DNA from: a virus
Length of the DNA stretch: 47,973 bases
IMG/VR virus record: IMGVR_UViG_3300032086_002480
Span: 1 to 47,973 of that record
Reading direction: 5' to 3' (one strand)
Shown: positions 2,508-20,837 of the stretch, piece after piece
How positions within the stretch are numbered: position 1 is the first letter of the stretch
Layout of the letters: every line of letters begins with the position of its first letter
Made by a program: the position numbers and the translations under genes
Notes under the pieces: model-generated
What the model was told of the DNA's origin: nothing
Databases searched by the model: none
The model's input: only the letters and a program-made list of their open reading frames with translations

Positions 2508-3191
2508 ATGAACAAGGTTAATGGATATGAAATAAAGCCCTATGCTAACTTAAGGCATGCTAACTTAAGGAATGCTAACCTAAGGTATGCTTCCTTAGTT
2601 GATGCTAACTTAAGGTACGTTGACTTAAGTAAGGCTGACTTAAGGGATGCTGACTTAAGGGATGCTAACTTAAGGGCTGCTTACTTAAGGGATTCTGACT
2701 TAAGGGATTCTGACTTAAGGTTCGCTCACTTAATGGATGCTAACTTAATGGATGCTAACTTAAGGTATGCTAACTTAATGGGGGCTAACTTAAGGTATGC
2801 TGACTTAAGGGGTGCTGACTTAATGGGTGCTGACTTAAGGTATGCTAACCTAAGGCGCGCTAACTTAAAGGGCGCTAAGCTGCCAGATTACTCCATCGTT
2901 CCAGAATGTGGTAGCTTCTACGGCTATAAAAAGACAACACATGGTGTAATTAAAATCCTAATCCCTGCTAAAGCTGAGAGGGTCTCTACATTAGTAGGTA
3001 GAAAATGTAGAGCTAGTCATGTTAAAGTTATTAGCGGTGAAGGAGTAGGAGGTGCTAGCACTATGAGGGGGGGTGTAATTTACTACCGAGGAGCAACCAT
3101 ACATGCTGATAAATTCGATGATGATATACGTGTTGAGTGTACACATGGTATACATTTCTTTTTAACAAGAGCAGAAGCCGAAGCTTGGTAA
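2508..3191 (+). CDS. Pentapeptide-repeat protein B with DUF5758-like C-terminus
   Basis: 227 residues. The first 11 residues match protein A (MNKVNGYEIKP), then about 23 pentapeptides run to about residue 127. The C-terminal ~90 residues differ completely from protein A: GVIKILIPAKAERVSTL, GRKCRASHVKV and a final CTHGIHFFLTRAEAEAW. That last motif is characteristic of the DUF5758-type domain found at the end of many phage pentapeptide proteins (recalled, not searched). The shared helix with swapped C-terminal modules suggests domain shuffling through the near-identical 15-bp repeats. The TAA stop is part of the TAATGCTATCA motif, as in protein A. Confidence 0.9.
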   Translation: MNKVNGYEIKPYANLRHANLRNANLRYASLVDANLRYVDLSKADLRDADLRDANLRAAYLRDSDLRDSDLRFAHLMDANLMDANLRYANLMGANLRYADLRGADLMGADLRYANLRRANLKGAKLPDYSIVPECGSFYGYKKTTHGVIKILIPAKAERVSTLVGRKCRASHVKVISGEGVGGASTMRGGVIYYRGATIHADKFDDDIRVECTHGIHFFLTRAEAEAW

Positions 3192-4010: not shown

Positions 4011-4883
4011 ATGAGTGTTAGTTACAGATTCGTAGATAAGGAGGGTAACCGCCTTATAACCTCTAAGTCCAGGGGTTGGAGTAGTGCAGGATGCTGGGGG
4101 GTATTGAAACAGTTTAAGTATAGTTTCGAAAGCTGCATCCAGCACTACGAAAAGTTTTTAAAGATGAGCCCTCATGAACAAAGGTTTTACCCAGACTCTT
4201 ACAGGAATGGTAGTGCAAATTATCTTGGAATACCTTTAGATACGAAACTGGAGGATATAACTCACTTAGAGTACCTAATGCCATTAGCTACTTTACGCAG
4301 TAAAACCAAGGAGGAGTTTTTGGTTTGGATACAACATGTTGCAGACTCATTGCCTATGTGGTTTAAAGACTTCAGTTTTAAAAGAGAAGGTTCGGAGTAT
4401 ATAGCCTCGGTGGATTGTTCAGGATCTTTTCTTCGTAACTACAATGCACTTAGATTCTTAAGGTCTATTGTGTATAGATACATAGGTAACCAACACAGAA
4501 CAGAATCTATCCCAATAGAGGCGCTTTTAGTTTTTTCAGAGGCATACTACTACTCTGGTACTACGTTCAAGTCTATAGGGCACATGGGAGATAATGTGTG
4601 TGTCCCTTTTAGACACTTTGACTCCTTAAAAGATGTACTTGAAAGAGTTCACTCTGGTCCTATAGAGTGTGGTTTCGACACTCCGTTATTGTTTCAAGAT
4701 AATAAATCTTTAGATATCCTTAAAGTGTCTTACGGCACTACTTACTATCCCTTAAGTAATGCATTCTTAACCACTACAGAGAGAATGGGTGGAGAAGCTA
4801 TTGGGGATGATCAATCAGTCCCTTCATACATCCCAAGGTATTCAGATGAGTACATCGAAAAAGCTAAGGAGGCACTGGCATGA
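4011..4883 (+). CDS. Unknown first gene of the amidoligase cassette
   Basis: 290 residues, good ribosome site (AGGAG). No family recognised. The N-terminal third is polar with SKSRGWSSAGCWG, the middle has DCSGSFLRNYNALRFLRSIV (about residues 136-155), and the C-terminal part is rich in Tyr, Ser and Gly (ALLVFSEAYYYSGTTF, SYGTTYYPLSN). No membrane segment. Its last four bases overlap the start of the COOH-NH2 ligase gene (ATGA), so the two are translationally coupled. It most likely belongs to the same pathway, perhaps as a partner or substrate-binding subunit. That is an inference from linkage only. Confidence 0.75.
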   Translation: MSVSYRFVDKEGNRLITSKSRGWSSAGCWGVLKQFKYSFESCIQHYEKFLKMSPHEQRFYPDSYRNGSANYLGIPLDTKLEDITHLEYLMPLATLRSKTKEEFLVWIQHVADSLPMWFKDFSFKREGSEYIASVDCSGSFLRNYNALRFLRSIVYRYIGNQHRTESIPIEALLVFSEAYYYSGTTFKSIGHMGDNVCVPFRHFDSLKDVLERVHSGPIECGFDTPLLFQDNKSLDILKVSYGTTYYPLSNAFLTTTERMGGEAIGDDQSVPSYIPRYSDEYIEKAKEALA

Positions 4884-5671
4884 CAAAATCAATAGCATTA
4901 AAGACTAATGTTGTGGAAACGACCATCGGATGTGACCCTGAGGTATTTTTCCTAAGAGGTGATAACGTTTACCCAGCAATAGGTATGATTGGTGGTACCA
5001 AAGAAGAGCCGATCCCTTGTAATGGAGGTGCATTGCAAGAAGACAATGTAATGGCAGAGTTTAACACTGATCCAGTGATGAGTGCTAACTCGTTTGACCA
5101 AATTGTTAAAACTGTTCTATCCGAAGTAGAAAAGATTGCTATCACGAATCAATGTACAGTTGGGACTCAAGCATCGAAGAATATTAATCAAATAACACTC
5201 GATTGTTTTCCTATGTCTAAACAGTTTGGATGTGACCCTGATTATAATGCTTACACTATGAAGGTGAACAAGACTCCTGACCCAGAAAGCACATTAAGGA
5301 CTTGTGCAGGGCATATTCACGTAGGGTATGATGTTGATGGAGGCCACAGTATGGAAGCTTCCAGTTACCTAGTTAAGTACTTAGATGCATACGTAGGGAC
5401 TTTTTGTGTACTCCAAGATAAAGATACCAGACGCATGAGTAGGTATGGCAAAGCAGGAGCATTTCGGCCTAAACCTTATGGCACAGAATACAGAGTTCCT
5501 TCTAACTTTTGGATATTCAGGAGTAGCTTGCGTAAGGAGATGTTTAAACGCGTACGAGAAGGATACTTAGCAGCTAAGATGGGGTACTCTTTACCAAGAG
5601 ATGTAGCAAGGGCTATTAACCTTCAAGACAAAGCAAGATGCGAGGAGATACTTAAATGCTTAAAACGATGA
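4880..5671 (+). CDS. COOH-NH2 ligase type 2 (phiEco32-like amidoligase)
   Basis: 263 residues, the usual size for the phage phiEco32-type COOH-NH2 ligase family (glutamine-synthetase/GCS fold). Motifs in order: GCDPEVFF (17-24), the acidic strand QEDNVMAEFN (53-62), AGHIHVGY (143-150), and the basic-aromatic block RYGKAGAFRPKPYGTEYRVP (about 188-207). These correspond to the metal- and ATP-binding strands of the superfamily. Such enzymes are predicted to join a carboxylate to an amine using ATP. The substrate is unknown; in this cassette it would act with a second amidoligase and an ATP-grasp ligase. It overlaps the genes on both sides, so it is tightly co-expressed. Confidence 0.88.
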   Translation: MTKSIALKTNVVETTIGCDPEVFFLRGDNVYPAIGMIGGTKEEPIPCNGGALQEDNVMAEFNTDPVMSANSFDQIVKTVLSEVEKIAITNQCTVGTQASKNINQITLDCFPMSKQFGCDPDYNAYTMKVNKTPDPESTLRTCAGHIHVGYDVDGGHSMEASSYLVKYLDAYVGTFCVLQDKDTRRMSRYGKAGAFRPKPYGTEYRVPSNFWIFRSSLRKEMFKRVREGYLAAKMGYSLPRDVARAINLQDKARCEEILKCLKR

Positions 5672-6366
5672 AAGGGTGGAAGGAAGAATTTTCTACTTCC
5701 ATGAGAGCAGCTGAGGGGCACCACAGCTTAGAGGACTTAGGGAGATTACACAGCAACTCCATTGTGACTTGTAATGGTAAAAAATACCTCCTCAGAGGAA
5801 GAGCTGTTGTTGGGAGAAAGACTGGAAAGATATACATTGAAGCTAGAGACCTCTCAAAACCTGAACCTACAACTAGACATTATCTACCCTTTGAAAAAAT
5901 AGATAACAAGTTTCCTGAAGTTGGGTACTACAACGTCTCTGTCCTCGCTCCAATGCGGGCAATCTTTGTAGACAGGATTACCTCTCAAAGGCAATGGAGG
6001 TATGGATTTCATGAGTCTATAGCTAGAATTTCTACACCATTTGTTCCTAAAGCTGCGGATGCCTTACACTTTTTCTTTAGAGACATAAGACATATCAATC
6101 AAGAGCACACAACGACTCTTATGGTGTACTCGCAGTGTGATGACAACTACCTGCCATTCGATGAAGCTATGCATAAAATCTCTCGTAACCAAGCGATTTC
6201 AGTAGCTTTGAGCAATAAGGTAGCTATCTCATTATCCCCTTATGACAACTCGATTGGCGTGTTCTTGATGGGTGTTGAGGTAGGAAGTGTAGACCCTTCA
6301 ACTGGACAGTTACATATTTTCAAAGAGTGGGCAGAAGATTCAATAAAGGAGGTGTGCAATGCCTAA
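5656..6366 (+). CDS. Unknown protein linked to the two amidoligases
   Basis: 236 residues, overlapping the ligase before it by 16 bases and the amidoligase after it by 8. No family recognised. It has a basic, helical start, a beta-rich stretch with KKYLLRGRAVVGRKTGKIYI (about 43-62), a central segment with FHESIARIST and FFFRDIRH, and a C-terminal SLSPYDNSIGVFLMGVEVG. No membrane helix or signal peptide. Being sandwiched by overlaps between two ligases of the same superfamily suggests a stoichiometric partner, such as a carrier or substrate-recognition subunit. This is inferred from gene order only. Confidence 0.75.
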   Translation: MLKTMKGWKEEFSTSMRAAEGHHSLEDLGRLHSNSIVTCNGKKYLLRGRAVVGRKTGKIYIEARDLSKPEPTTRHYLPFEKIDNKFPEVGYYNVSVLAPMRAIFVDRITSQRQWRYGFHESIARISTPFVPKAADALHFFFRDIRHINQEHTTTLMVYSQCDDNYLPFDEAMHKISRNQAISVALSNKVAISLSPYDNSIGVFLMGVEVGSVDPSTGQLHIFKEWAEDSIKEVCNA

Positions 6367-7525
6367 TGCATCAAACATTGCTAGCGTGTTTAGCCTAGCT
6401 GCTGCAGATTCGCTTGTGAATAAATCATCAGCACTGCTTCTATCTGATACTCGTGTGGGGATTGAGGTAGAAGCCGAGTCTCTTAGACGAAACAGAGACT
6501 ACTACCAACACACCCCTTCGCCTATAAGTGCTTACTGGAATGTTGTAAGGGATGGCTCCCTAAGAGGATCTTCCAGTGCAGAGTTTGTGTTTAAACAGCC
6601 ACTGTTTGGTGAAGACGTAGTGAATGCTTTGACAACTCTACATGAGGAGATAGGAGACTTGAGGCCTTCTGTTAGGACTAGTGTACATGTACATTTAGAT
6701 GTTAGAGATATGACTTACCAACAATTACTAAATCTAGTTATTGTGTACCTACTTGCAGAACCTATAATGTTCTCTCAGGTAGCCAAAGAAAGGGTTCATA
6801 ACCCGTACTGTGCACCATTGAGATCTTGCAGCACTTACCTGTCCAACATTAGACGTTGTTTAACATCAGACGATAGGGATGGGTACTATAGTTTCTTAGG
6901 TAATTCAGCTGGTAATAAATACACAGCTTTGAACTTGCTGCCTATGGCTACTCAAGGCTCTATCGAGTTTCGTCACAAGGAAGGGACAAGTGATGTTAAT
7001 GCTATCATAGATTGGCTAAATATAATATATTGCATTAAGAACTATGCAATGTCCTGTGATGACATATCCAGCATTGTAGATGTTAATGGGATTATGGATG
7101 ACTACCAAGGGTTCATATTAGAAGTCTTTGAACAGGCTAACATTCCAGCTCTTCCTGTATTAGCTTCACAGGCTGAAAGGGATGCAGGAATATGTGTTAA
7201 AACGATGCTGTATGATGTCAGGGAGGACTTAGTAGTTATGGGTAGATCTTTTGACAAAGATTCCCCTTTCTGGGAACTCTGCCAAGACGTTTACGAAGAA
7301 CATTCTGATTACATCCTGCAAATGGATACAACAGCTTCCGCAACTAGGAGACGCGGCACCCCTTCCGCAACTAGCAGACGCGGTAGTAGACTCTCAGGCA
7401 CCCATTCGTGGATTACTACTGGGCCATCCCGTACATCCACAGACGGGCTCGATGTACTACTTGGAGATCAAGATATACAGCGTACAGTAGCAGAATTTCG
7501 GTCAACATTTACCTCAACAGATTAG
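6359..7525 (+). CDS. Amidoligase (Amidoligase_2 family)
   Basis: 388 residues. Superfamily motifs: GIEVEAE (34-40), VRDGSL (63-68) with AEFVF (74-78), the His strand SVHVHLDV (108-115), KYTALNLLP (187-195) and SIEFRHKEGT (201-210). These acidic, His and Arg residues are the expected metal/ATP ligands of the GCS-type amidoligase fold. It is distinct from the ligase at 4880, so the cassette has two. Beyond about residue 320 is a low-complexity Ser/Thr/Arg tail with two copies of an SATxRRG unit. The predicted activity is ATP-dependent amide-bond formation between a carboxyl group and an amine; partners are unknown. Confidence 0.85.
   Translation: MPNASNIASVFSLAAADSLVNKSSALLLSDTRVGIEVEAESLRRNRDYYQHTPSPISAYWNVVRDGSLRGSSSAEFVFKQPLFGEDVVNALTTLHEEIGDLRPSVRTSVHVHLDVRDMTYQQLLNLVIVYLLAEPIMFSQVAKERVHNPYCAPLRSCSTYLSNIRRCLTSDDRDGYYSFLGNSAGNKYTALNLLPMATQGSIEFRHKEGTSDVNAIIDWLNIIYCIKNYAMSCDDISSIVDVNGIMDDYQGFILEVFEQANIPALPVLASQAERDAGICVKTMLYDVREDLVVMGRSFDKDSPFWELCQDVYEEHSDYILQMDTTASATRRRGTPSATSRRGSRLSGTHSWITTGPSRTSTDGLDVLLGDQDIQRTVAEFRSTFTSTD
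7335..7383 (+). repeat. Tandem 27-bp repeat in the amidoligase tail
   Basis: Two copies of a 22-nt unit (7335-7356 and 7362-7383, 21 of 22 identical, starting CTTCCGCAACTAG) with a 27-bp period, equal to nine codons, encode two Ser-Ala-Thr-x-Arg-Arg-Gly modules. The segment is visibly more GC-rich than its surroundings. Confidence 0.8.
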
Positions 7526-7553
7526 ATTTTAACTAGAAACAGGAGATATACAT

Positions 7554-9038
7554 ATGTGTGGAATAGTAGGAGCAGTGGGCTCCGCTTTAACTTATAAAGT
7601 AAAGGAAGCGTTCTTAGACTTATTAGTCTTAGACACCATTCGTGGAGAAGATAGTACAGGGATGGTTGTAGTAGATAATTCTCTCGATACAAGCTCTTTC
7701 AAAAAAGCTGTGGATGGTTTTACATTTACTCAAATGAAGAAAACCAACAAGTTGCTGAACAGAGCTACCTCCCCTAGGCTTTTACTAGGGCATAACAGAG
7801 CTGCTACGAAAGGGAGAGTCACTTGTGAAAATGCTCACCCATTCAAATCAGGTAACACTCACCTTGTTCATAATGGTACGTTAACATCTTGGTTTGATTT
7901 ACATAATGCTAAAGATACTGATGTTGACAGTGAAGCTATCTGTTTTGAGGTAGAAGAGAATGGAATACTCCCTACTGTAGCCAAGCTAAAGGGGGCTTAT
8001 ACTCTAGCTACCTACGATGAAGAGACTAAGATATTCAGTATTATTCGGAATGATCAAAGACCTTTGTCATGTGCTAAGCTCAAGGGTGAGGATATTATGT
8101 TCTTTGCAAGTCTCCCAGATATGATCAGGCTGGTTGCCAGTAAGTACAAGTTAGAGTTGGAGACAGACCCTTGGGAGCTTAAGACAGATACATTAGTCGA
8201 GTTTGATTTGAGTAGAAACAGTAAAGATATTGCTACAAAGTTTAAAGTTACAAAGGATGTCCCTGTATATACACCACCAAAGTTTACAAAGGGAGGGACA
8301 TACAGAAAAAAGTTTCTTCCGGCGACTACGAAGATTGGTTCAACGAACAATGTAGGTTCTACGAAGGGCGCTACTAACAATCTGAGTAGTCTCCGAGATA
8401 AGCGTCAACAGAAGCAACAGACTGTACTAACAAAAGATTTTGGGTTAGCTATGAACCAAGACGTAGTAGGACTAGTCACTTCTTTCCAATACTTTGATGG
8501 GCAGTCTAGTGTTAAGCACAACAAAGGCTTCGGTAAGATTTTCTTTGAGTGGTGTAATCCTAAGAAACCTTACGACCGCCAGAGGATGGTATCTTTTAGA
8601 GCTACTATGGCTGACTTCTTGAAGTTCAAGAATGAGTATGTCCACTGTACAATCATCGGAGTGGCTAACATCAAAAGTAAAAACAGTGTAAAAGATATAT
8701 GGGTTCCTATGATTAAATTCGCTGATGCGTTGACAGAGGAAGAGCATGATTCTTTTTGGCAAAGTTGCAACTGGGATTCTGAAATTGTCATAGAAGATAC
8801 AACAGAGGAGGGCACCCAACACACTCTGGTCGAATACCTCGGCAAAGAGGTTACTACTGAAGAGTTTAATAAAGCCGTTAAAAATGGGTGCTGTGTCTGT
8901 AGTGACCCTATATTTCCTGCTGACTCAAGCGACGTCGTGTTAGTCATGGAAGAGCCTGTTTGCAAAGGGTGCGCAACAGATCTAGCTTGGCAAGCAAAGA
9001 ACACTGGGGAAAGCATAGAGGAATTGTTAACTAAATGA
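7554..9038 (+). CDS. Class II glutamine amidotransferase with zinc-ribbon tail
   Basis: 494 residues. It begins MCGIVGAVG, with the catalytic N-terminal Cys2 of Ntn-type (GATase II) enzymes, followed by IRGEDSTGM (about 30-38), LGHNRAATKG (about 79-88) and HLVHNGTL, which match the glutamine-binding motifs. The GATase domain ends near residue 240. The long C-terminal half is not a synthase domain I recognise; it contains a Ser/Thr/Lys-rich linker (about 245-290) and near the end Cys446-x2-Cys449 and Cys470-x2-Cys473, a likely zinc ribbon. The family hydrolyses glutamine to ammonia or transfers the amide. Here it probably supplies nitrogen to, or edits products of, the cassette's ligases. Confidence 0.88.
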   Translation: MCGIVGAVGSALTYKVKEAFLDLLVLDTIRGEDSTGMVVVDNSLDTSSFKKAVDGFTFTQMKKTNKLLNRATSPRLLLGHNRAATKGRVTCENAHPFKSGNTHLVHNGTLTSWFDLHNAKDTDVDSEAICFEVEENGILPTVAKLKGAYTLATYDEETKIFSIIRNDQRPLSCAKLKGEDIMFFASLPDMIRLVASKYKLELETDPWELKTDTLVEFDLSRNSKDIATKFKVTKDVPVYTPPKFTKGGTYRKKFLPATTKIGSTNNVGSTKGATNNLSSLRDKRQQKQQTVLTKDFGLAMNQDVVGLVTSFQYFDGQSSVKHNKGFGKIFFEWCNPKKPYDRQRMVSFRATMADFLKFKNEYVHCTIIGVANIKSKNSVKDIWVPMIKFADALTEEEHDSFWQSCNWDSEIVIEDTTEEGTQHTLVEYLGKEVTTEEFNKAVKNGCCVCSDPIFPADSSDVVLVMEEPVCKGCATDLAWQAKNTGESIEELLTK

Positions 9039-9066
9039 AAGGGTGACCCCCAGTGGGCTCTATTAG

Positions 9067-9192
9067 ATGAAAACAAAGATGAGTATTGCCGGAGTAAGAA
9101 CAGAGTTGAGATACAGAGCATGGCAATATGCTCTACAGAATCCTCAGGATTCAAATACTCTGTGGCAATGGCATTTCAAACAGAAGGAGTAA
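9067..9192 (+). CDS. Possible small protein (41 aa)
   Basis: ATG at 9067 opens a 41-codon frame ending TAA at 9190, inside the ribosome site of the next gene. The product (starting MKTKMSIAGVRTELRYRAWQ) is polar with several Arg, Gln and Trp residues. It fills the gap between two cassette genes, and the next start (GTG 9196) follows within four bases. The ribosome site is weak, so it may be a leader peptide or not translated. Confidence 0.4.
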   Translation: MKTKMSIAGVRTELRYRAWQYALQNPQDSNTLWQWHFKQKE

Positions 9193-9195
9193 TGA

Positions 9196-9543
9196 GTGAG
9201 TAAACAACATACAGTAGCAGTATATGGTTCTTTGAAGAAAGGTTTTGGAAACCATAGATTGCTTACCAATGCAGAGTACTTAGGTGTAGACAAAATCGAT
9301 GGATGGGATATGTATGGACTAGGAGGGTTCCCCGGAATAGTAGCAGGGGAGGGTTCTATCCACATAGAGGTCTACAAAGTCGATGATGAAGAGATGGCTA
9401 GATTAGATATGCTAGAAGGCTACCCATCTTTTTATGATCGTAAGCAAGTTTCTACACAGCATGGTGATGCTTGGGTGTACTTCCTAGCTACCCCTGAGAA
9501 TTACATAGATACCTGTGCTGTAGTTCCTACTGGGAGGTGGTAA
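9196..9543 (+). CDS. Gamma-glutamylcyclotransferase-like protein
   Basis: 115 residues from a GTG start with AAGGAG 6 nt upstream. VAVYGSLKKGFGNHRLL (about 7-23) carries the YGSL signature of the GGCT/AIG2-like fold, and LDMLEGYPSFYDRKQV (70-85) provides the conserved acidic residue (Glu74) and the Tyr of the active-site pocket. The length is typical of the bacterial short form. The family cleaves gamma-glutamyl-amine bonds with release of 5-oxoproline. Next to two amidoligases, a GATase and an ATP-grasp, the obvious idea is that a gamma-glutamyl group is added and later removed, as in gamma-glutamylated pathway intermediates (inference). Confidence 0.88.
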   Translation: MSKQHTVAVYGSLKKGFGNHRLLTNAEYLGVDKIDGWDMYGLGGFPGIVAGEGSIHIEVYKVDDEEMARLDMLEGYPSFYDRKQVSTQHGDAWVYFLATPENYIDTCAVVPTGRW

Positions 9544-9774
9544 GTGAGTACAATAAGGTCTTTCGTTGATGAGGAGATAAAAAATTTTAATAAAAGTTTG
9601 TTAGCTTTAATAAAAGCTAAGTACCTAGGCAGAACTGTCCAAGTGATGGGTCTTAACAAAGGTGTGTGGGTAAAAAGTACCGTAACCGTAAAGACGATAC
9701 ACCTAGACTCAAACTACAGTATCCATATAAACAACATCTGCCATCACCAAGATTACCCTATTATCATAATCTAA
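9544..9774 (+). CDS. Small unknown protein in amidoligase cassette
   Basis: 76 residues starting at GTG 9544, immediately after the stop of the cyclotransferase gene, with GGGAGG overlapping that gene's end. A Lys-rich helical N-terminus (VDEEIKNFNKSLLALIK) is followed by beta-type residues (GRTVQVMGLNKGVW, VTVKTIHL) that could form a small barrel, and a hydrophobic end (PIIII). No family recognised. Tight coupling suggests it works with the cyclotransferase or the ATP-grasp ligase downstream. Confidence 0.65.
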   Translation: MSTIRSFVDEEIKNFNKSLLALIKAKYLGRTVQVMGLNKGVWVKSTVTVKTIHLDSNYSIHINNICHHQDYPIIII

Positions 9775-9793
9775 ATTTAGGAGGTACTAAACT

Positions 9794-10552
9794 ATGAGAA
9801 TACTTCAATACAAGAATGGCAGTAAAAGTGCTAGGGAACTTTCTACTGCACTTGGTTGTCTAAGACTAACCCGTGAGGGTAGTAGATTTAGGAATAACTA
9901 CAACCATGCGATTATTAATTGGGGGTGTAGCTCTTTCGATAACTCATTTCCTGTCACTACTTGGATAAATAATCCAGAAGCTGTAGGTAGAGCTAGTAAT
10001 AAGCTATCATGCTTTAGGGCTTTGCAGGAGAAGATCCCTGATAACATCCCTGAGTTTGCTACATCCCCTCAAGATGTTGATTGGGAGAAACCTACTGTAG
10101 TTAGACACAGGTTGACAGGGCATAGTGGGGAAGGTATAGAGATTGTACCTGAAGGGCAAGAACTCCCTAGAGCACCTCTTTATGTAAAATACATTAAGAA
10201 GTCTAAAGAGTTCAGGGCACATGTAATCAACGGGAGGGTTGTAGATGTTCAAGAAAAACGTAAAAGACGTGATGTTGAAAATGATCTGGTGGATTATCGC
10301 GTGCGTAACAGCAGTAATGGTTGGGTGTATTGCAGGGATTCTGTTAATTACGGGGATCAACTTGTGGATATTGCTGTTGATGCTGTTGATTGTCTGGGAT
10401 TGGACTTTGGAGCGGTAGATATCATATATAACAGGCACTATGACAAGTACTACGTACTAGAAGTCAACACTGCTTGTGGAATGGAAGGTTCTACAGTCAC
10501 CTCGTATGCTAATCACATACGTAGACTGCTTTTAGAAAAGGGGGCAAGATAA
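9794..10552 (+). CDS. ATP-grasp ligase (RimK-like, phage type)
   Basis: 252 residues with AGGAGG upstream. The ATP-grasp core is visible: KYIKKSKEFRAHVINGRVVD (132-151, with the Lys and Glu-Phe-Arg of the nucleotide site), QEKRKRR (153-159), LDFGAVDI (203-210, acidic metal ligand) and VLEVNTACGMEG (221-232, the Glu-x-Asn metal pair). This is the arrangement of RimK/carboxylate-amine ligases, which form amide bonds via an acyl-phosphate. It is the third predicted amide-forming enzyme of the cassette. A partial copy of the bipartite regulatory motif lies inside its 5' end (9836-9864). Its stop overlaps the next gene start (TAATG). Confidence 0.88.
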   Translation: MRILQYKNGSKSARELSTALGCLRLTREGSRFRNNYNHAIINWGCSSFDNSFPVTTWINNPEAVGRASNKLSCFRALQEKIPDNIPEFATSPQDVDWEKPTVVRHRLTGHSGEGIEIVPEGQELPRAPLYVKYIKKSKEFRAHVINGRVVDVQEKRKRRDVENDLVDYRVRNSSNGWVYCRDSVNYGDQLVDIAVDAVDCLGLDFGAVDIIYNRHYDKYYVLEVNTACGMEGSTVTSYANHIRRLLLEKGAR

Positions 10553-12051: not shown

Positions 12052-12264
12052 ATGGGAAAAACAATTAATGGAACATACTATACCTCTAGAGAGTTAGAGG
12101 CTATAAAGAAGGCTCACACTGACGATGAGTTTGAAAAGTTTCTGATCAGTGGAGTAATAGGAGCTGCTACAGGCTCCACTATAATTGGAGGACTCTTAGG
12201 TGGAAGTTTCTTAGGAGGTTTTATGGGAGACCTATTAGAGGGGGATGATGACTCTTGGTTGTAA
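12052..12264 (+). CDS. Small glycine-zipper membrane protein
   Basis: 70 residues. A polar helical half (MGKTINGTYYTSRELEAIKK) is followed by a Gly-rich hydrophobic region at about 33-60 (SGVIGAATGSTIIGGLLGGS) with GxxxG spacing, then an acidic tail (LLEGDDDSWL). This is the pattern of glycine-zipper membrane peptides that oligomerise or perturb bilayers. It overlaps the start of the primase-helicase gene by 10 bases, so the two are coupled. Function unknown. Confidence 0.65.
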   Translation: MGKTINGTYYTSRELEAIKKAHTDDEFEKFLISGVIGAATGSTIIGGLLGGSFLGGFMGDLLEGDDDSWL

Positions 12265-13976
12265 GAGATGACACTGGTAAATGCGTAGCTAAAGCTGCTT
12301 GCCCATCTTGTGGTTCTGGGGATGGAGTACAAATTTTTGAGAAGCCCTCAGGCAAGAGAGATGCGTACTGCTTTGCATGTGAAAAACATTATAATAAAGT
12401 TGATGGACTTCAAGTCATCGAGGAGGATACCATTACACAACACACCATATCTAAAATATCAATGAGCGACATAAGGGATCTAAAGGCAGGGCCACTACCA
12501 GAAAGAGGATTAAGAGAAGATACTCTCGAAGCTTTCGGTGTTAAGTTAGGCTATGCATCGGATGATCGTAACAGAGTCGCACATCATTTCTACCCTTCAT
12601 ACCATTTAGATGGTACATTACAAGGGTACGATCACAGAGAGGTTGATGGGAAGAAGTTTTTCAAAGTAGGGAAGACTAAAGACTCTCAACTGTTCGGACA
12701 AAACATACGTAATGGAGGTAAAAAACTATTCGTAACAGAGGGTCATTGTGATGCAATGGCACTATTCCAAGCTATTAAAGATACTAACCCACCAGCCATG
12801 ACTGCTAAAGGTTACTTACCTTCAGTCGTATCTATAACTAACGGTATAGCTGGAGCACTTACACAGCTAGAAAACAATTCAAAGTTCTTAGCAACTTTTA
12901 AAGAAATAGTTCTTGTATTTGATTCAGACACTGCTGGACGTAGTGGTGCAGAGAAGGTAGCTAAATCCTTAGATCATAAGGTTCTTATTGCAGACTTGCC
13001 TCTTAAAGATGCCAATGATATGGTATTAGCAGGTAGGGAGCAAGAGTTGCGAGAGGCTGCTGTATTCAATGCAGTTCCTTATGAACCTGATGGTATTATG
13101 AATGGTAAAGATTGTTGGGAAAGGTATAAGACTAAGCAAGATATTAAATGTCATCCATACCCTGAACAATTCTCTGAACTTAATCGTAAGACATATGGAT
13201 GGAGATCTGGAACAGTAGTAGCAATCACCTCTGGATCAGGGATGGGTAAGACTCAATTCTGTCGAGAGCTTGCGTATGACATTGGAGTAGTAAAAGGTAT
13301 TAAGACAGCCATCGTAGCCTTAGAGGAGGACGTAGGAGACTCAGTAGAAGGCTTAATGGCTGTTCACCTAAGTAAGAGAATATCCTTGCCTGACGTAGCT
13401 GTAACTAAGGAGGAAGAGACTAAAGCTTTTGATGAAGTGTTTGGTTCAGGTATGTTTGAACTGTATGACCACTTCGGAGGTATGAGTGACTCCTCCTTAT
13501 TCAGTAGACTTAGGTACTTTGCTACGTATCTTAACTGTAAAGCTATCATACTTGACCATCTATCCATAGTCATCTCTGAAACAGCTGATGAAGGTGATGA
13601 ACGTAGAAGGATAGATGCTGTTATGACTAAGCTAGCTGTAATGGCTAAAGCATTAGACGTAGTTATATTCTTAGTAATACATCTACGTAAAGCAGGGCAA
13701 GGGAAATCATTTGAAGAAGGCTATGTACCAACTAGTGATGATCTAAGAGGGAGTGCATCTATTAAGCAACTATCTCATGACATCCTAGCTTTATCTAGGA
13801 ATCAGCAAGAAGAGGACGATGTAAAGAGGAATACCTCTGGTATACATGTGCTCAAGTGTAGGTTCTCAGGAGATACTGGGCAAGCTGGTTATACCTTTTT
13901 CAATCCAACAACTGGGAGACTCACGCATAGTGAAGACCCTCATCTTGAAACAGTCAGTGAAGAGAGTGAATTTTAA
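12255..13976 (+). CDS. Primase-helicase (T7 gp4-like)
   Basis: 573 residues, close to T7 gp4 (566). N-terminal zinc ribbon: Cys16-x2-Cys19 and Cys39-x2-Cys42. The TOPRIM primase core has VTEGHCDAMALF (about 159-170) and VFDSDTAGRSG (about 219-229). The RecA-like helicase has Walker A SGSGMGKT (about 325-332), Walker B AIILDHLSI (about 429-437) and the hexamer motif DDLRGSASIKQLSHD. It unwinds DNA and primes lagging-strand synthesis at the fork. The start appears to be TTG 12255, with GAGGGG 10 nt upstream and overlapping the previous gene, because no ATG precedes the zinc motif. TTG suggests modest expression. Confidence 0.95.
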   Translation: MVVRDDTGKCVAKAACPSCGSGDGVQIFEKPSGKRDAYCFACEKHYNKVDGLQVIEEDTITQHTISKISMSDIRDLKAGPLPERGLREDTLEAFGVKLGYASDDRNRVAHHFYPSYHLDGTLQGYDHREVDGKKFFKVGKTKDSQLFGQNIRNGGKKLFVTEGHCDAMALFQAIKDTNPPAMTAKGYLPSVVSITNGIAGALTQLENNSKFLATFKEIVLVFDSDTAGRSGAEKVAKSLDHKVLIADLPLKDANDMVLAGREQELREAAVFNAVPYEPDGIMNGKDCWERYKTKQDIKCHPYPEQFSELNRKTYGWRSGTVVAITSGSGMGKTQFCRELAYDIGVVKGIKTAIVALEEDVGDSVEGLMAVHLSKRISLPDVAVTKEEETKAFDEVFGSGMFELYDHFGGMSDSSLFSRLRYFATYLNCKAIILDHLSIVISETADEGDERRRIDAVMTKLAVMAKALDVVIFLVIHLRKAGQGKSFEEGYVPTSDDLRGSASIKQLSHDILALSRNQQEEDDVKRNTSGIHVLKCRFSGDTGQAGYTFFNPTTGRLTHSEDPHLETVSEESEF

Positions 13977-14245: not shown

Positions 14246-14322
14246 TTAGAAGAAAACGCACACTAGAGAAGTTAAGTCGTAAACGTAGAATCAGGCTATC
14301 AAATGATTCTAACAGTATTTGA
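14242..14322 (+). CDS. Arg/Lys-rich micro-ORF (26 aa)
   Basis: ATG at 14242 sits in an ATGA overlap with the preceding stop and has GGAGAGGAG just upstream. The 26-residue product starts MIRRKRTLEKLSRKRRIRL and has 10 Arg/Lys. It overlaps the exonuclease gene start (14303) in another frame. A similar basic micro-ORF lies at 18472, also tied to its neighbours. It may be a real nucleic-acid-binding peptide or a translational coupler that brings ribosomes to the next start. Too short to judge by composition alone. Confidence 0.45.
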   Translation: MIRRKRTLEKLSRKRRIRLSNDSNSI

Positions 14323-14770
14323 TACTGAGTCCGATGGACTTCTTGACGAAGCTACTAGAATACATTGTGCCTGCCTACGTAACAATAAAGGTGAGCGTAA
14401 CAGCTATACTCGTAGTGATATCAGCTTATTTCTTGATGCTTTATCTCTTTCAGATATTATCGTAGCACATAATGCTATTGACCATGACATCCCACTCCTT
14501 AAGAAGCTTTATGGGTGGGAGTACAATGGCATAGTAGTAGACTCTTTAGTCTTCAGTAGATTGCTACAACCTGAGAGAGTAGGAAGGCACAGTATTGAAG
14601 CTTGGGGTGAACGGTTTGGAGTACCTAAACCAGTTCATGAAGATTGGTCTACATACTCACCAGAGATGTTACATAGGTGTGAGCAAGATGTAGAGATTAA
14701 CTGGCTTATTCTAGAAGAACTTCTGAAGGAGTCAGAGTTAACAATGGAGGATTTATGTCAAATGAAATAG
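14303..14770 (+). CDS. DNA polymerase 3'-5' proofreading exonuclease (separate gene)
   Basis: 155 residues matching the N-terminal exonuclease domain of T7-type DNA polymerase: ExoI FDTESDG (Asp7, Glu9), ExoII AHNAIDHD (55-62), the conserved RHSIEAWGERFGVPK (95-109), and ExoIII HRCEQDV (Asp129). T7 pol has Tyr-x3-Asp in ExoIII. Here the position four before the Asp is Arg125, while His124-x4-Asp129 fits a DEDDh pattern instead. The polymerase domain is a separate gene starting 358 bases later in the same frame. The product would proofread in trans in complex with the polymerase subunit. Confidence 0.88.
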   Translation: MILTVFDTESDGLLDEATRIHCACLRNNKGERNSYTRSDISLFLDALSLSDIIVAHNAIDHDIPLLKKLYGWEYNGIVVDSLVFSRLLQPERVGRHSIEAWGERFGVPKPVHEDWSTYSPEMLHRCEQDVEINWLILEELLKESELTMEDLCQMK

Positions 14771-14958: not shown

Positions 14959-15141
14959 ATGAGCAAAGATGTTAGTAAAAAGGTGGATATTGACCTTAAG
15001 GAGTTCTTAGAAGAGGTAGAGGATGCTATTGATTATATAGTATTTGACAGAGATTCTTCCAAAATTCCAGAGGTAATGTATCTAATAAAAAAGTTTGTGC
15101 TTGAAAGAGATAGAAACTGTGACTGTGATGGGCATGTCTAG
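14959..15141 (+). CDS. Small acidic protein within split polymerase locus
   Basis: 60 residues, ATG 14959 with GGAG upstream. Acidic helical (DIDLKEFLEEVEDAIDYIVF) with a C-terminal pair of Cys in RDRNCDCDGHV. It overlaps the polymerase start by about 14 bases in another frame. No family recognised. It is the second of two small ORFs inserted between exonuclease and polymerase genes. Confidence 0.6.
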   Translation: MSKDVSKKVDIDLKEFLEEVEDAIDYIVFDRDSSKIPEVMYLIKKFVLERDRNCDCDGHV

Positions 15142-16495
15142 ATCATGGCTACAAGCCTTACAGATTGAACTCAAGATGGCTCATATTATCCATCAACAGG
15201 CTCAAAATGGTTGGTTATTCGACAAAGACAAGTGTTCTGCTTACATAGAAGAGCTTGGTGCCACTATGAATGGCATATACGAATCACTTAAACCATCCCT
15301 CCCTATAACTGTTAAACAGTATGGCGTTACAATCGAAGAGCCTTTTAAGATGGATAGGTCTCTTAAGAAGATGGTTACTGATTGGACAGATGAGGATGTT
15401 CTTGGGCCTTTTACGAGGATCTATTTTGAAGATTTTAACTTAGGTAGTGACAAGCAGGTTAAAGAGTTTCTACTCACCGTTGGTTGGAAACCTACTTGGT
15501 GGAACTTCAGAAAGAAAGACTCTAAAGAAGGTAAGAAGGGAGACAGGATGTCTCCTAAATTATCAGATAAAGGCCACCTTTGTCCTAACCTAGATGAGTT
15601 AGATGGAGAACTAGGTCAGAACATAGCTACATACCTTAAGTGTAAGCACCGTAAGAGCTTGTTAGAGGGCTTATTAAAGGTAGTTAGACCAGATGGAAGG
15701 ATACCTGCAGAAGCTAACACCATAGGGGCTGCTACGCATCGTATGACGCATAGGAAGATCGTCAATATCCCCGGAGGTGACTCCTTTTACGGTAAAGAGA
15801 TAAGATCATTGTTTATTACTAAAGCTGGCTACTCTATAGTAGGTTGTGATTCAAAGAGTAATCAAATGAGGATGTTAGCTCATTACCTAGGGATAGATGA
15901 AAAGCACCCCTATGGCTATGCTATACTAAAAGGTACAAAAGCTGAAGGGAATGACTGTCACTGTGTTGCTGCTGAGTCTGCTGGATTGGAGAGTAGAAGT
16001 GGAGGTAAGACTCTTAACTACTCACTCTTATTCGGCCAAGGAGACGCATCTACTGCTAAAGCGTTAGGTAAGTCAACTGCTCAAACAAGAGCTGTAAAGG
16101 ATAGATTCTTCAGTAATATCCCTGAGTTGCCTATCTTACTTAATAATGTAAAGAAAGCTGTTAGGGTAAGAGGGTTCTTGTACGGGCTAGATGGTAGGAA
16201 GATTTACTGCTCTAGTGAGCACAAAGCTCTTAACTACTTACTACAATCTGCGGAGGCAGTCTATATGAAATATAGCCAAGCAATCTTAGCTAGGGCTATC
16301 GAGAAAGAAGGTCTAGATGCTAAGTTTATAGCAACCATACATGATGAGTATCAACTGGAGGTAAAAGATGAGCATGTAAAGAGAGTATCTGAACTTTGTT
16401 TGTGGGCTATGGAGAAAGCTGGTACATATCTAAACATTAGTGTTCCTATGGAAGGGGATGTGAATGTAGGTAAAAACTGGTCAGAAACACATTAA
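15128..16495 (+). CDS. Family A DNA polymerase, polymerase domain only
   Basis: About 455 residues, covering only the polymerase part of T7 gp5-type enzymes (704 residues with exonuclease). Motif A GCDSKSNQMRMLAHYLG carries the metal Asp, with Gln where many family A enzymes have Glu. Motif B RSGGKTLNYSLLFGQG has the Arg and Lys of the O-helix, Tyr at the Phe762 position of Pol I, and Phe instead of the usual second Tyr. Motif C IHDEYQLEV has the catalytic His-Asp-Glu. GLDGRKIYC and ALNYLLQSAEAV are also conserved with T7. I place the start at ATG 15128; ATG 15134 is equally possible, and earlier codons lie inside the upstream gene. Confidence 0.92.
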   Translation: MGMSRSWLQALQIELKMAHIIHQQAQNGWLFDKDKCSAYIEELGATMNGIYESLKPSLPITVKQYGVTIEEPFKMDRSLKKMVTDWTDEDVLGPFTRIYFEDFNLGSDKQVKEFLLTVGWKPTWWNFRKKDSKEGKKGDRMSPKLSDKGHLCPNLDELDGELGQNIATYLKCKHRKSLLEGLLKVVRPDGRIPAEANTIGAATHRMTHRKIVNIPGGDSFYGKEIRSLFITKAGYSIVGCDSKSNQMRMLAHYLGIDEKHPYGYAILKGTKAEGNDCHCVAAESAGLESRSGGKTLNYSLLFGQGDASTAKALGKSTAQTRAVKDRFFSNIPELPILLNNVKKAVRVRGFLYGLDGRKIYCSSEHKALNYLLQSAEAVYMKYSQAILARAIEKEGLDAKFIATIHDEYQLEVKDEHVKRVSELCLWAMEKAGTYLNISVPMEGDVNVGKNWSETH

Positions 16496-20486: not shown

Positions 20487-20837
20487 ATGAGTGTTACATC
20501 GATTGAAAAGAAATCAGCCTTATGCCCTCCCAGCTCAGGGGCAGTAAAGTTCGATGATGATAAACCTAGGATGGATTTAATACCTCCAGAGCTCTTAACC
20601 GAAGTAGCTAAAGTCCTTACCTTCGGGGCTGAAAAGTACAGTGCTAGGAATTGGGAAGAAGGGATGGATTGGGGGAGAGTGTATGCAGCACTTCAACGAC
20701 ACTTAAACGCTTGGTTGTCTGGGGACGATAAGGACGATGAGACTGGGTATAGCCACCTATCTCACGCAGCCTGTTGCATAGCTTTCTTAATAACTTATGA
20801 AAGTAGGGGTATCGGGGAAGACACGAGGTCATTATGA
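20487..20837 (+). CDS. dATP/dGTP pyrophosphohydrolase-like protein (DUF5664 type)
   Basis: 116 residues, GGAGAA upstream. GAVKFDDDKPRMDLIPPELL (about 18-37), LTFGAEKYSARNWEEGM (about 44-60), ALQRHLNAWLSGDDKDDETG (about 67-86) and LSHAACCIAFL match the DUF5664/MazG-like pattern (D-D-x-K-P-R...H-x-x-x-W...E-x-G), which is annotated in other phages as dATP/dGTP diphosphohydrolase. Acidic residues in the D-E-T-G segment would bind Mg. It would adjust the dNTP pool. No modified-base synthesis gene (PurZ-like) is visible, so a 2-aminoadenine genome is not indicated. Confidence 0.75.
   Translation: MSVTSIEKKSALCPPSSGAVKFDDDKPRMDLIPPELLTEVAKVLTFGAEKYSARNWEEGMDWGRVYAALQRHLNAWLSGDDKDDETGYSHLSHAACCIAFLITYESRGIGEDTRSL

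Follow-up and report, generated by a model that had tools for sequence, protein, structure and literature searches.

An intact copy of a widespread phage cassette points to a probable cytoplasmic pathway that forms amide bonds and cuts gamma-glutamyl bonds

The virus record IMGVR_UViG_3300032086_002480, a podovirus-like phage sequence of 47,973 bases that was analyzed over its full length (the window), carries at positions 4011-10552 of its + strand an operon-like run of overlapping or closely spaced genes, here called the cassette. It is an intact member of an already described, widespread phage cassette, and we consider it on balance probable that the products constitute a conserved phage pathway, located in the cytoplasm, in which amide bonds are made and gamma-glutamyl bonds are cut. 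Five enzymes are encoded, all on the + strand: a COOH-NH2 ligase, i.e., a phiEco32-type amidoligase (4880-5671), an Amidoligase_2 protein (6359-7525), an N-terminal nucleophile (Ntn) enzyme of the class II glutamine amidotransferase (GATase) type (7554-9038), a gamma-glutamyl cyclotransferase (GGCT) of the GGACT/AIG2/YtfP family (9196-9543) and an ATP-grasp ligase resembling RimK and the glutamate ligases (9794-10552). Two further proteins of the same strand accompany them, a 290-residue protein, Y (4011-4883), and a 236-residue conserved cassette protein, X (5656-6366), and the overlaps among the first four genes are 4, 16 and 8 bases. An earlier reading of the DNA alone (the sequence-only reading) had placed these enzyme families in these open reading frames (ORFs), overlaps included, and the placement is confirmed by Pfam and PHROG matches and by intact residues.

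For each enzyme family, residue conservation was judged by aligning 49 to 59 relatives. The COOH-NH2 ligase matches PF14395 (2.6e-8, 33.8 bits versus a cut-off of 25) and phrog_3815 (5.7e-66), and its conserved residues are D19, E21, K41, D55, E60, R140, H145 and H147, joined in the C-terminal part by R185, R196, E203, Y204 and R205. Amidoligase_2 matches PF12224 (2e-7, 31.6 bits versus a cut-off of 22) and phrog_7469 (1e-45), with conservation of G34, E36, E38, E75, H110, H112, Y188, E203, F204 and R205, which include the ExE, HxH and E-F-R motifs. For the ATP-grasp ligase the matches are to RimK-type PF08443 (5.8e-6) and phrog_2599 (2e-79), and the core residues K70, E139, R141, K155, D209, E223 and N225 are kept; its match to rimK_fam TIGR00768 (7.9e-10, 38.5 bits) lies below the cut-off of 143.4, and its nearest NCBIfam families are glutamate ligases, with RimK, MptN and MvdC-type enzymes among them. 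In all five enzymes the window copy retains the polar residues that are conserved. Deviations at conserved columns are seen in the COOH-NH2 ligase (e.g., T63, S113, A143 and C254), the ATP-grasp ligase (C228) and the Ntn enzyme (L187 and I191), and none of these is an invariant charged residue. Loss of catalytic residues, the outcome named by the sequence-only reading as counting against it, was looked for in these alignments, and the residues proved intact in every one of the five.

The Ntn enzyme matches GATase_6 (PF13522, 1e-12) and, across nearly its whole length, phrog_4736 (3.7e-76), and conserves C2 (the N-terminal cysteine), R82, N107, G108 and D125 (glutamine pocket). Its C-terminus carries a zinc-ribbon-like CxxC...CxxC arrangement, the four cysteines of which are present in 71-80% of 120 homologues. 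In the structural model, residues 1-222 are of high confidence and the middle region is predicted to be disordered; the model resembles GlmS (Z 25.5, 208 residues aligned, 2.2 Å), PurF (Z 24.9) and the gamma-glutamyl hydrolase EgtC (Z 22.1, 204 residues aligned, 2.6 Å). No synthase domain of the GlmS, PurF or AsnB type was recognized in the model or by NCBIfam, and glmS TIGR01135 matches at positions 1-202 of 607 only (50.2 bits versus 418). The EgtC family of NCBIfam scored 15.9 bits (0.0062) versus a cut-off of 218.65, and the modeled likeness to EgtC is a structural resemblance only. The enzyme may supply ammonia to a separate partner, or it may act as EgtC does on a gamma-glutamyl amide. 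Because no synthase domain is recognizable, EgtC-style hydrolysis is at least as likely as ammonia handling; both roles need the conserved glutamine pocket, so that sequence cannot choose between them. Thus, where this protein had been called an ammonia-handling Ntn enzyme, the Ntn/GATase II domain stands, intact, and the ammonia role is unproven.

The assignment of the GGCT is firm in PF06094 (GGACT; 1.8e-24, 87 bits versus a cut-off of 22.8); the YGSL motif is present, Y10, G11, L13 and the catalytic glutamate E74 are conserved, and the nearest solved structure is YtfP (1xhs, 4.8e-21). Many phage cassettes, the window's not among them, encode a Peptidase_C26 (C26) enzyme, whose C87/H183/E185 triad is preserved in 97-100% of 77 sequences. 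In NCBIfam this enzyme scored best, though below cut-off in both cases, against gamma-glutamyl-CDP-amidate hydrolase and gamma-glutamyl-GABA hydrolase.

We compared 84 loci with adequate flanks, comprising 67 viral contigs, 16 phage records and the window. Around the COOH-NH2 ligase, a GATase-type gene was found in 84/84, the ATP-grasp ligase in 83/84, Amidoligase_2 in 80/84 and X in 66/84, a recurrence that excludes chance association. GGCT lies nearby in 56/84 loci and C26 in 55/84: both are present in 30, GGCT only in 26, C26 only in 25 and neither in 3. If at least one gamma-glutamyl-cutting enzyme belongs to each cassette, a distant one is predicted in the three exceptions, and whole-record searches located one in each, i.e., GGCT in Salmonella phage 7-11 and Proteus phage 3H10_20 and C26 in the locus L134, with two of the three at least ~10 kb away from the ligase. 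At least one gamma-glutamyl-cutting family, GGCT or C26, is therefore present in all 84 cassettes examined, a count that covers cassette loci alone and is slightly asymmetric because whole records were searched for the three exceptions only. C26 and GGCT have unrelated folds with a common gamma-glutamyl specificity, which is the strongest reason to think that gamma-glutamyl amides are what the pathway handles. Together with the intact residues, the presence of such a family in each cassette supports the gamma-glutamyl add-and-remove scheme suggested earlier. We also considered mutual exclusion of GGCT and C26 (Fisher p 0.0013) and set it aside, as it is unsupported once relatedness is counted on the ligase tree, which offers too few supported independent pairs.

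Iterative profile searches from X gathered a family in 47 loci that includes phiEco32 gp85, PaP3 ORF47, PA11 ORF006 and CVT22 gp57. In 64 of the cassettes in which it was detected, X has the COOH-NH2 ligase and Amidoligase_2 as its immediate neighbors on either side. The family alignment contains no column pattern resembling a catalytic site and no known enzyme motif. The AlphaFold model (pLDDT 80.7, pTM 0.74) gave no match at E 0.001 in a Foldseek search of the PDB, and matched viral models including H9D1D2 of the cassette phage CW02 (E 7e-9). Its N-terminal part is weakly SH3/Tudor/KOW-like (best Z 4.9, 57 residues aligned, 3.2 Å), a resemblance too weak for a fold to be named. We infer that X would serve the ligases as a binding partner or scaffold. 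A second architecture, in which no X gene was detected, occurs in eight loci (L004, L010, L015, L064, L066, L097, L104 and L110), in the order GGCT, ATP-grasp, C26, COOH-NH2 ligase, GATase, Amidoligase_2.

Y is the positional counterpart of phiEco32 gp87 and PaP3 ORF49. It had no match in Pfam, PHROG, NCBIfam or PADLOC, and no sequence relative was found by a pattern scan of viral contigs, by phmmer against the ORFs of ~135 loci or by profile comparison. Proteins of ~300 residues occupy the Y position in many cassettes, with two such clades related to each other; no sequence relative of Y having been found, homology to these proteins is not claimed. In L054, L059 and L060, two adjacent and mutually related ~300-residue proteins stand upstream of the COOH-NH2 ligase, which suggests that some phages have duplicated their Y-type genes in tandem. 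The sequence-only reading had listed X and Y as two large unknowns: both are there, but they are unlike each other, and X belongs to a conserved family.

By tblastn, 316 phage records carry the COOH-NH2 ligase and 321 carry Amidoligase_2; DNA nearly identical to the window was not found in the phage collection. The order Y, COOH-NH2 ligase, X, Amidoligase_2, GATase is common to the window, the Pseudomonas phages tf and PaP3 and the Escherichia phage phiEco32, and UFV-P2 has the same order but for an inserted HNH gene (PMC3890496). A contig scan, which reaches fairly close patterns only, returned 13 metagenome-binned contigs; since a phage-type primase adjoins the cassette in several of them, a home in cellular genomes was not supported.

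In the pathway that we favor, up to three ATP-dependent ligases (the COOH-NH2 ligase, Amidoligase_2 and the RimK-like ATP-grasp ligase) would make amide bonds. One or both amidoligases would couple the gamma-carboxyl of glutamate to an amine; the second ligase and the ATP-grasp ligase would extend or join the intermediate, adding a further amide; and the Ntn enzyme and GGCT, with C26 in other phages, would remove the gamma-glutamyl group to free the product, with X beside the ligases. A hydropathy scan of the cassette products showed no transmembrane-like segment and no obvious signal peptide, and the acceptor is therefore probably cytoplasmic. Most likely it would be a cytoplasmic precursor of the cell envelope, changed to exclude later phages; a protein is almost as good a candidate for the acceptor. 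A more specific version is possible, though we hold it only tentatively: a novel small molecule or conjugate would be made in a cycle of gamma-glutamyl protection, ligation and deprotection, with the five enzymes on the scaffold X and with GGCT and C26 as interchangeable final deprotectors. If true, the cycle would be a viral biosynthetic pathway and not a wall-degrading set.

Several observations weigh against the favored pathway. The COOH-NH2 ligase profile gave no useful match to solved structures, and its kinship with gamma-glutamylcysteine ligase is taken from published classification. The glutamine-binding pocket of the Ntn enzyme suits a true glutaminase equally well as a gamma-glutamyl hydrolase. 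A tree-aware test of mutual replacement between GGCT and C26 was not significant, and both could be generic metabolic genes. Finally, for no member of the cassette did we find a known substrate or product.

Among the rival explanations, modification of the envelope or peptidoglycan is possible but rather doubtful as a full account. In this reading, which later papers credit to Iyer et al. and to Hardies et al., the ligases would build unusual wall-peptide linkages, the GATase and GGCT would degrade peptidoglycan, and superinfection would be blocked. The proposal is in print for phiEco32 and its relatives: a 2017 Pseudoalteromonas phage paper that cites both sources devotes a section to a 'Peptidoglycan Modification Cassette', hypothesizes prevention of superinfection and names RIO-1, phiEco32, 7-11, PA11, tf, MR299-2, LUZ24, PaP3 and CW02 (PMC5498523), and a paper on an OM43 phage raises the superinfection idea again for phiEco32 (PMC10580990). 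Consistent with it, the PaP3 block ORF32-48, which includes the cassette enzymes, consists of middle genes with peak expression 10-30 min after infection (PMC4707531), and cassette phages infect many different hosts, which fits a near-universal acceptor. This explanation shares its acceptor with the pathway that we favor and differs from it in making GGCT a wall-degrading enzyme. The substrates of GGCT and C26 are L-gamma-glutamyl compounds with a free alpha-amine, and the gamma-D-glutamate of the wall bears L-alanine on its nitrogen. Direct wall degradation by GGCT is thus unlikely. In the literature we found no experiment on envelope modification, and no experimental report of a substrate or product, any peptidoglycan modification included. 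The sequence-only reading had taken both to be undescribed; that holds for experimental identification, but envelope modification against superinfection was already published, as cited above.

Protein tagging, which we regard as unlikely, would mean that a protein of the host or of the phage receives glutamyl or other residues from the RimK-like ATP-grasp ligase and the amidoligases; X would serve as adaptor, and GGCT, C26 and the Ntn enzyme would trim the tag. Some ligases of the RimK, MptN and MvdC types, the nearest to the ATP-grasp ligase, do act on proteins or peptides, and the partial SH3/Tudor likeness of X is to a common binding fold; against this stand the weakness of that likeness and the lack of a target candidate. 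GGCT and C26 act mostly on small substrates, which also speaks against tagging. For an anti-defence use, likewise suggested by the sequence-only reading, no test outcome speaks in preference to envelope or protein modification. The PADLOC models of known anti-phage defence proteins gave no match at 0.01.

An auxiliary role in nitrogen or amino-acid metabolism, in which glutamine, ammonia and gamma-glutamyl peptides are recycled for phage or host growth, is quite improbable. The idea was put forward for ZRK32, a phage of Planctomycetes with these genes (the cassette was seen in L045), and in the available text of that report the gene role is inferred without gene deletion (PMC10945688). Moreover, recycling could do without X and a pair of dedicated amidoligases.

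Hypermodification of DNA bases, in which they would receive amino-acid or peptide groups, is hardly credible, even though the cassette adjoins replication genes. Amino-acid-modified bases are known in other phages and provide a precedent. However, in Rembedalsseter, which carries the complete cassette, native-versus-amplified Nanopore sequencing revealed nicks only and no modified base (PMC11780129), and HaeIII cuts tf DNA (PMC3517423). The nick motif of LUZ24-like phages, TACTRTGMC, is not enriched in the window (4 sites on both strands, with as many in 15/100 shuffles), so that a LUZ24-like nicking pattern is probably missing from the window phage.

Hundreds of phages, among them laboratory models such as phiEco32 and PaP3, spend about 6 kb, out of genomes of 45-90 kb, on this pathway. 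With a cutting enzyme in each of the examined cassettes and X as a conserved partner, what had been a general proposal becomes specific chemistry that is testable in tractable phages. Relative to the later papers that build on the Iyer and Hardies work, the X family, the cutting enzyme in all 84 cassettes examined and the Ntn enzyme with no recognized synthase domain are added here. The only experimental hint of selection on the cassette that we found comes from evolved variants of the Pseudomonas phage FJK, in which the amidoligase gene and the GATase-like gene carried missense changes (PMC11450229); the two evolved phages (15 and 30 rounds) may be one lineage and are not counted as independent.

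Between GGCT and the ATP-grasp ligase lies a 76-residue ORF (9544-9774, + strand) with no confident Pfam or PHROG family match. Downstream, the DNA primase/helicase (12255-13976, + strand; homologue in the locus L002, 1.8e-231) is the usual neighbor of the cassette, on the same side in phiEco32, tf, PaP3, PA11 and CVT22, and is outside the cassette pathway. A promoter scan gave fewer sites than in shuffled sequence and was not used as evidence. The DNA polymerase appears split into an exonuclease-like ORF (14303-14770) and a polymerase ORF (15095-16495), resembling PaP3 and phiEco32, where the exonuclease subunit is annotated separately. A nucleotide-pool enzyme of the dATP/dGTP diphosphohydrolase N-terminal family (PF18909, 3.5e-36) is encoded at 20487-20837. 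Just upstream of the cassette, two pentapeptide-repeat proteins (1383-1949 and 2508-3191) have nearly the same N-terminus (MNKVNGYEIKP), and the second ends in a C-terminal DUF5758 domain. Pentapeptide repeats can mimic DNA, and the two are possible host-takeover genes.

Compared with known systems, the window's cassette is closest to the podovirus cassette of phiRIO-1/PSA-HP1, phiEco32, PaP3/LUZ24, PA11 and CW02, with the same families, adjacency and place before the primase/helicase; GGCT precedes the ATP-grasp ligase in the window and L002, whereas the ATP-grasp ligase comes first in tf, PaP3 and phiEco32. Among the known gamma-glutamyl pathways, that of the butirosin side chain uses an ATP-grasp enzyme (BtrJ) to add a gamma-glutamyl group and a GGCT-family enzyme (BtrG) to remove it, as proposed for the cassette, but it is carrier-protein based and lacks a COOH-NH2 ligase, an Amidoligase_2 and an Ntn partner of the GATase type. 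In ergothioneine synthesis the group is added by EgtA and removed by EgtC, which, like the Ntn enzyme, has a GATase-II fold with no synthase domain and cuts a gamma-glutamyl amide; the cassette, however, has no sulfoxide synthase or methyltransferase, and its sequence match to EgtC is weak. In PuuA/PuuD polyamine catabolism, glutamate-amine ligation is followed by the action of a Peptidase_C26 hydrolase, a sequence of steps similar to that envisaged here, although the cassette has no Puu oxidases or dehydrogenases and the window's copy no C26.

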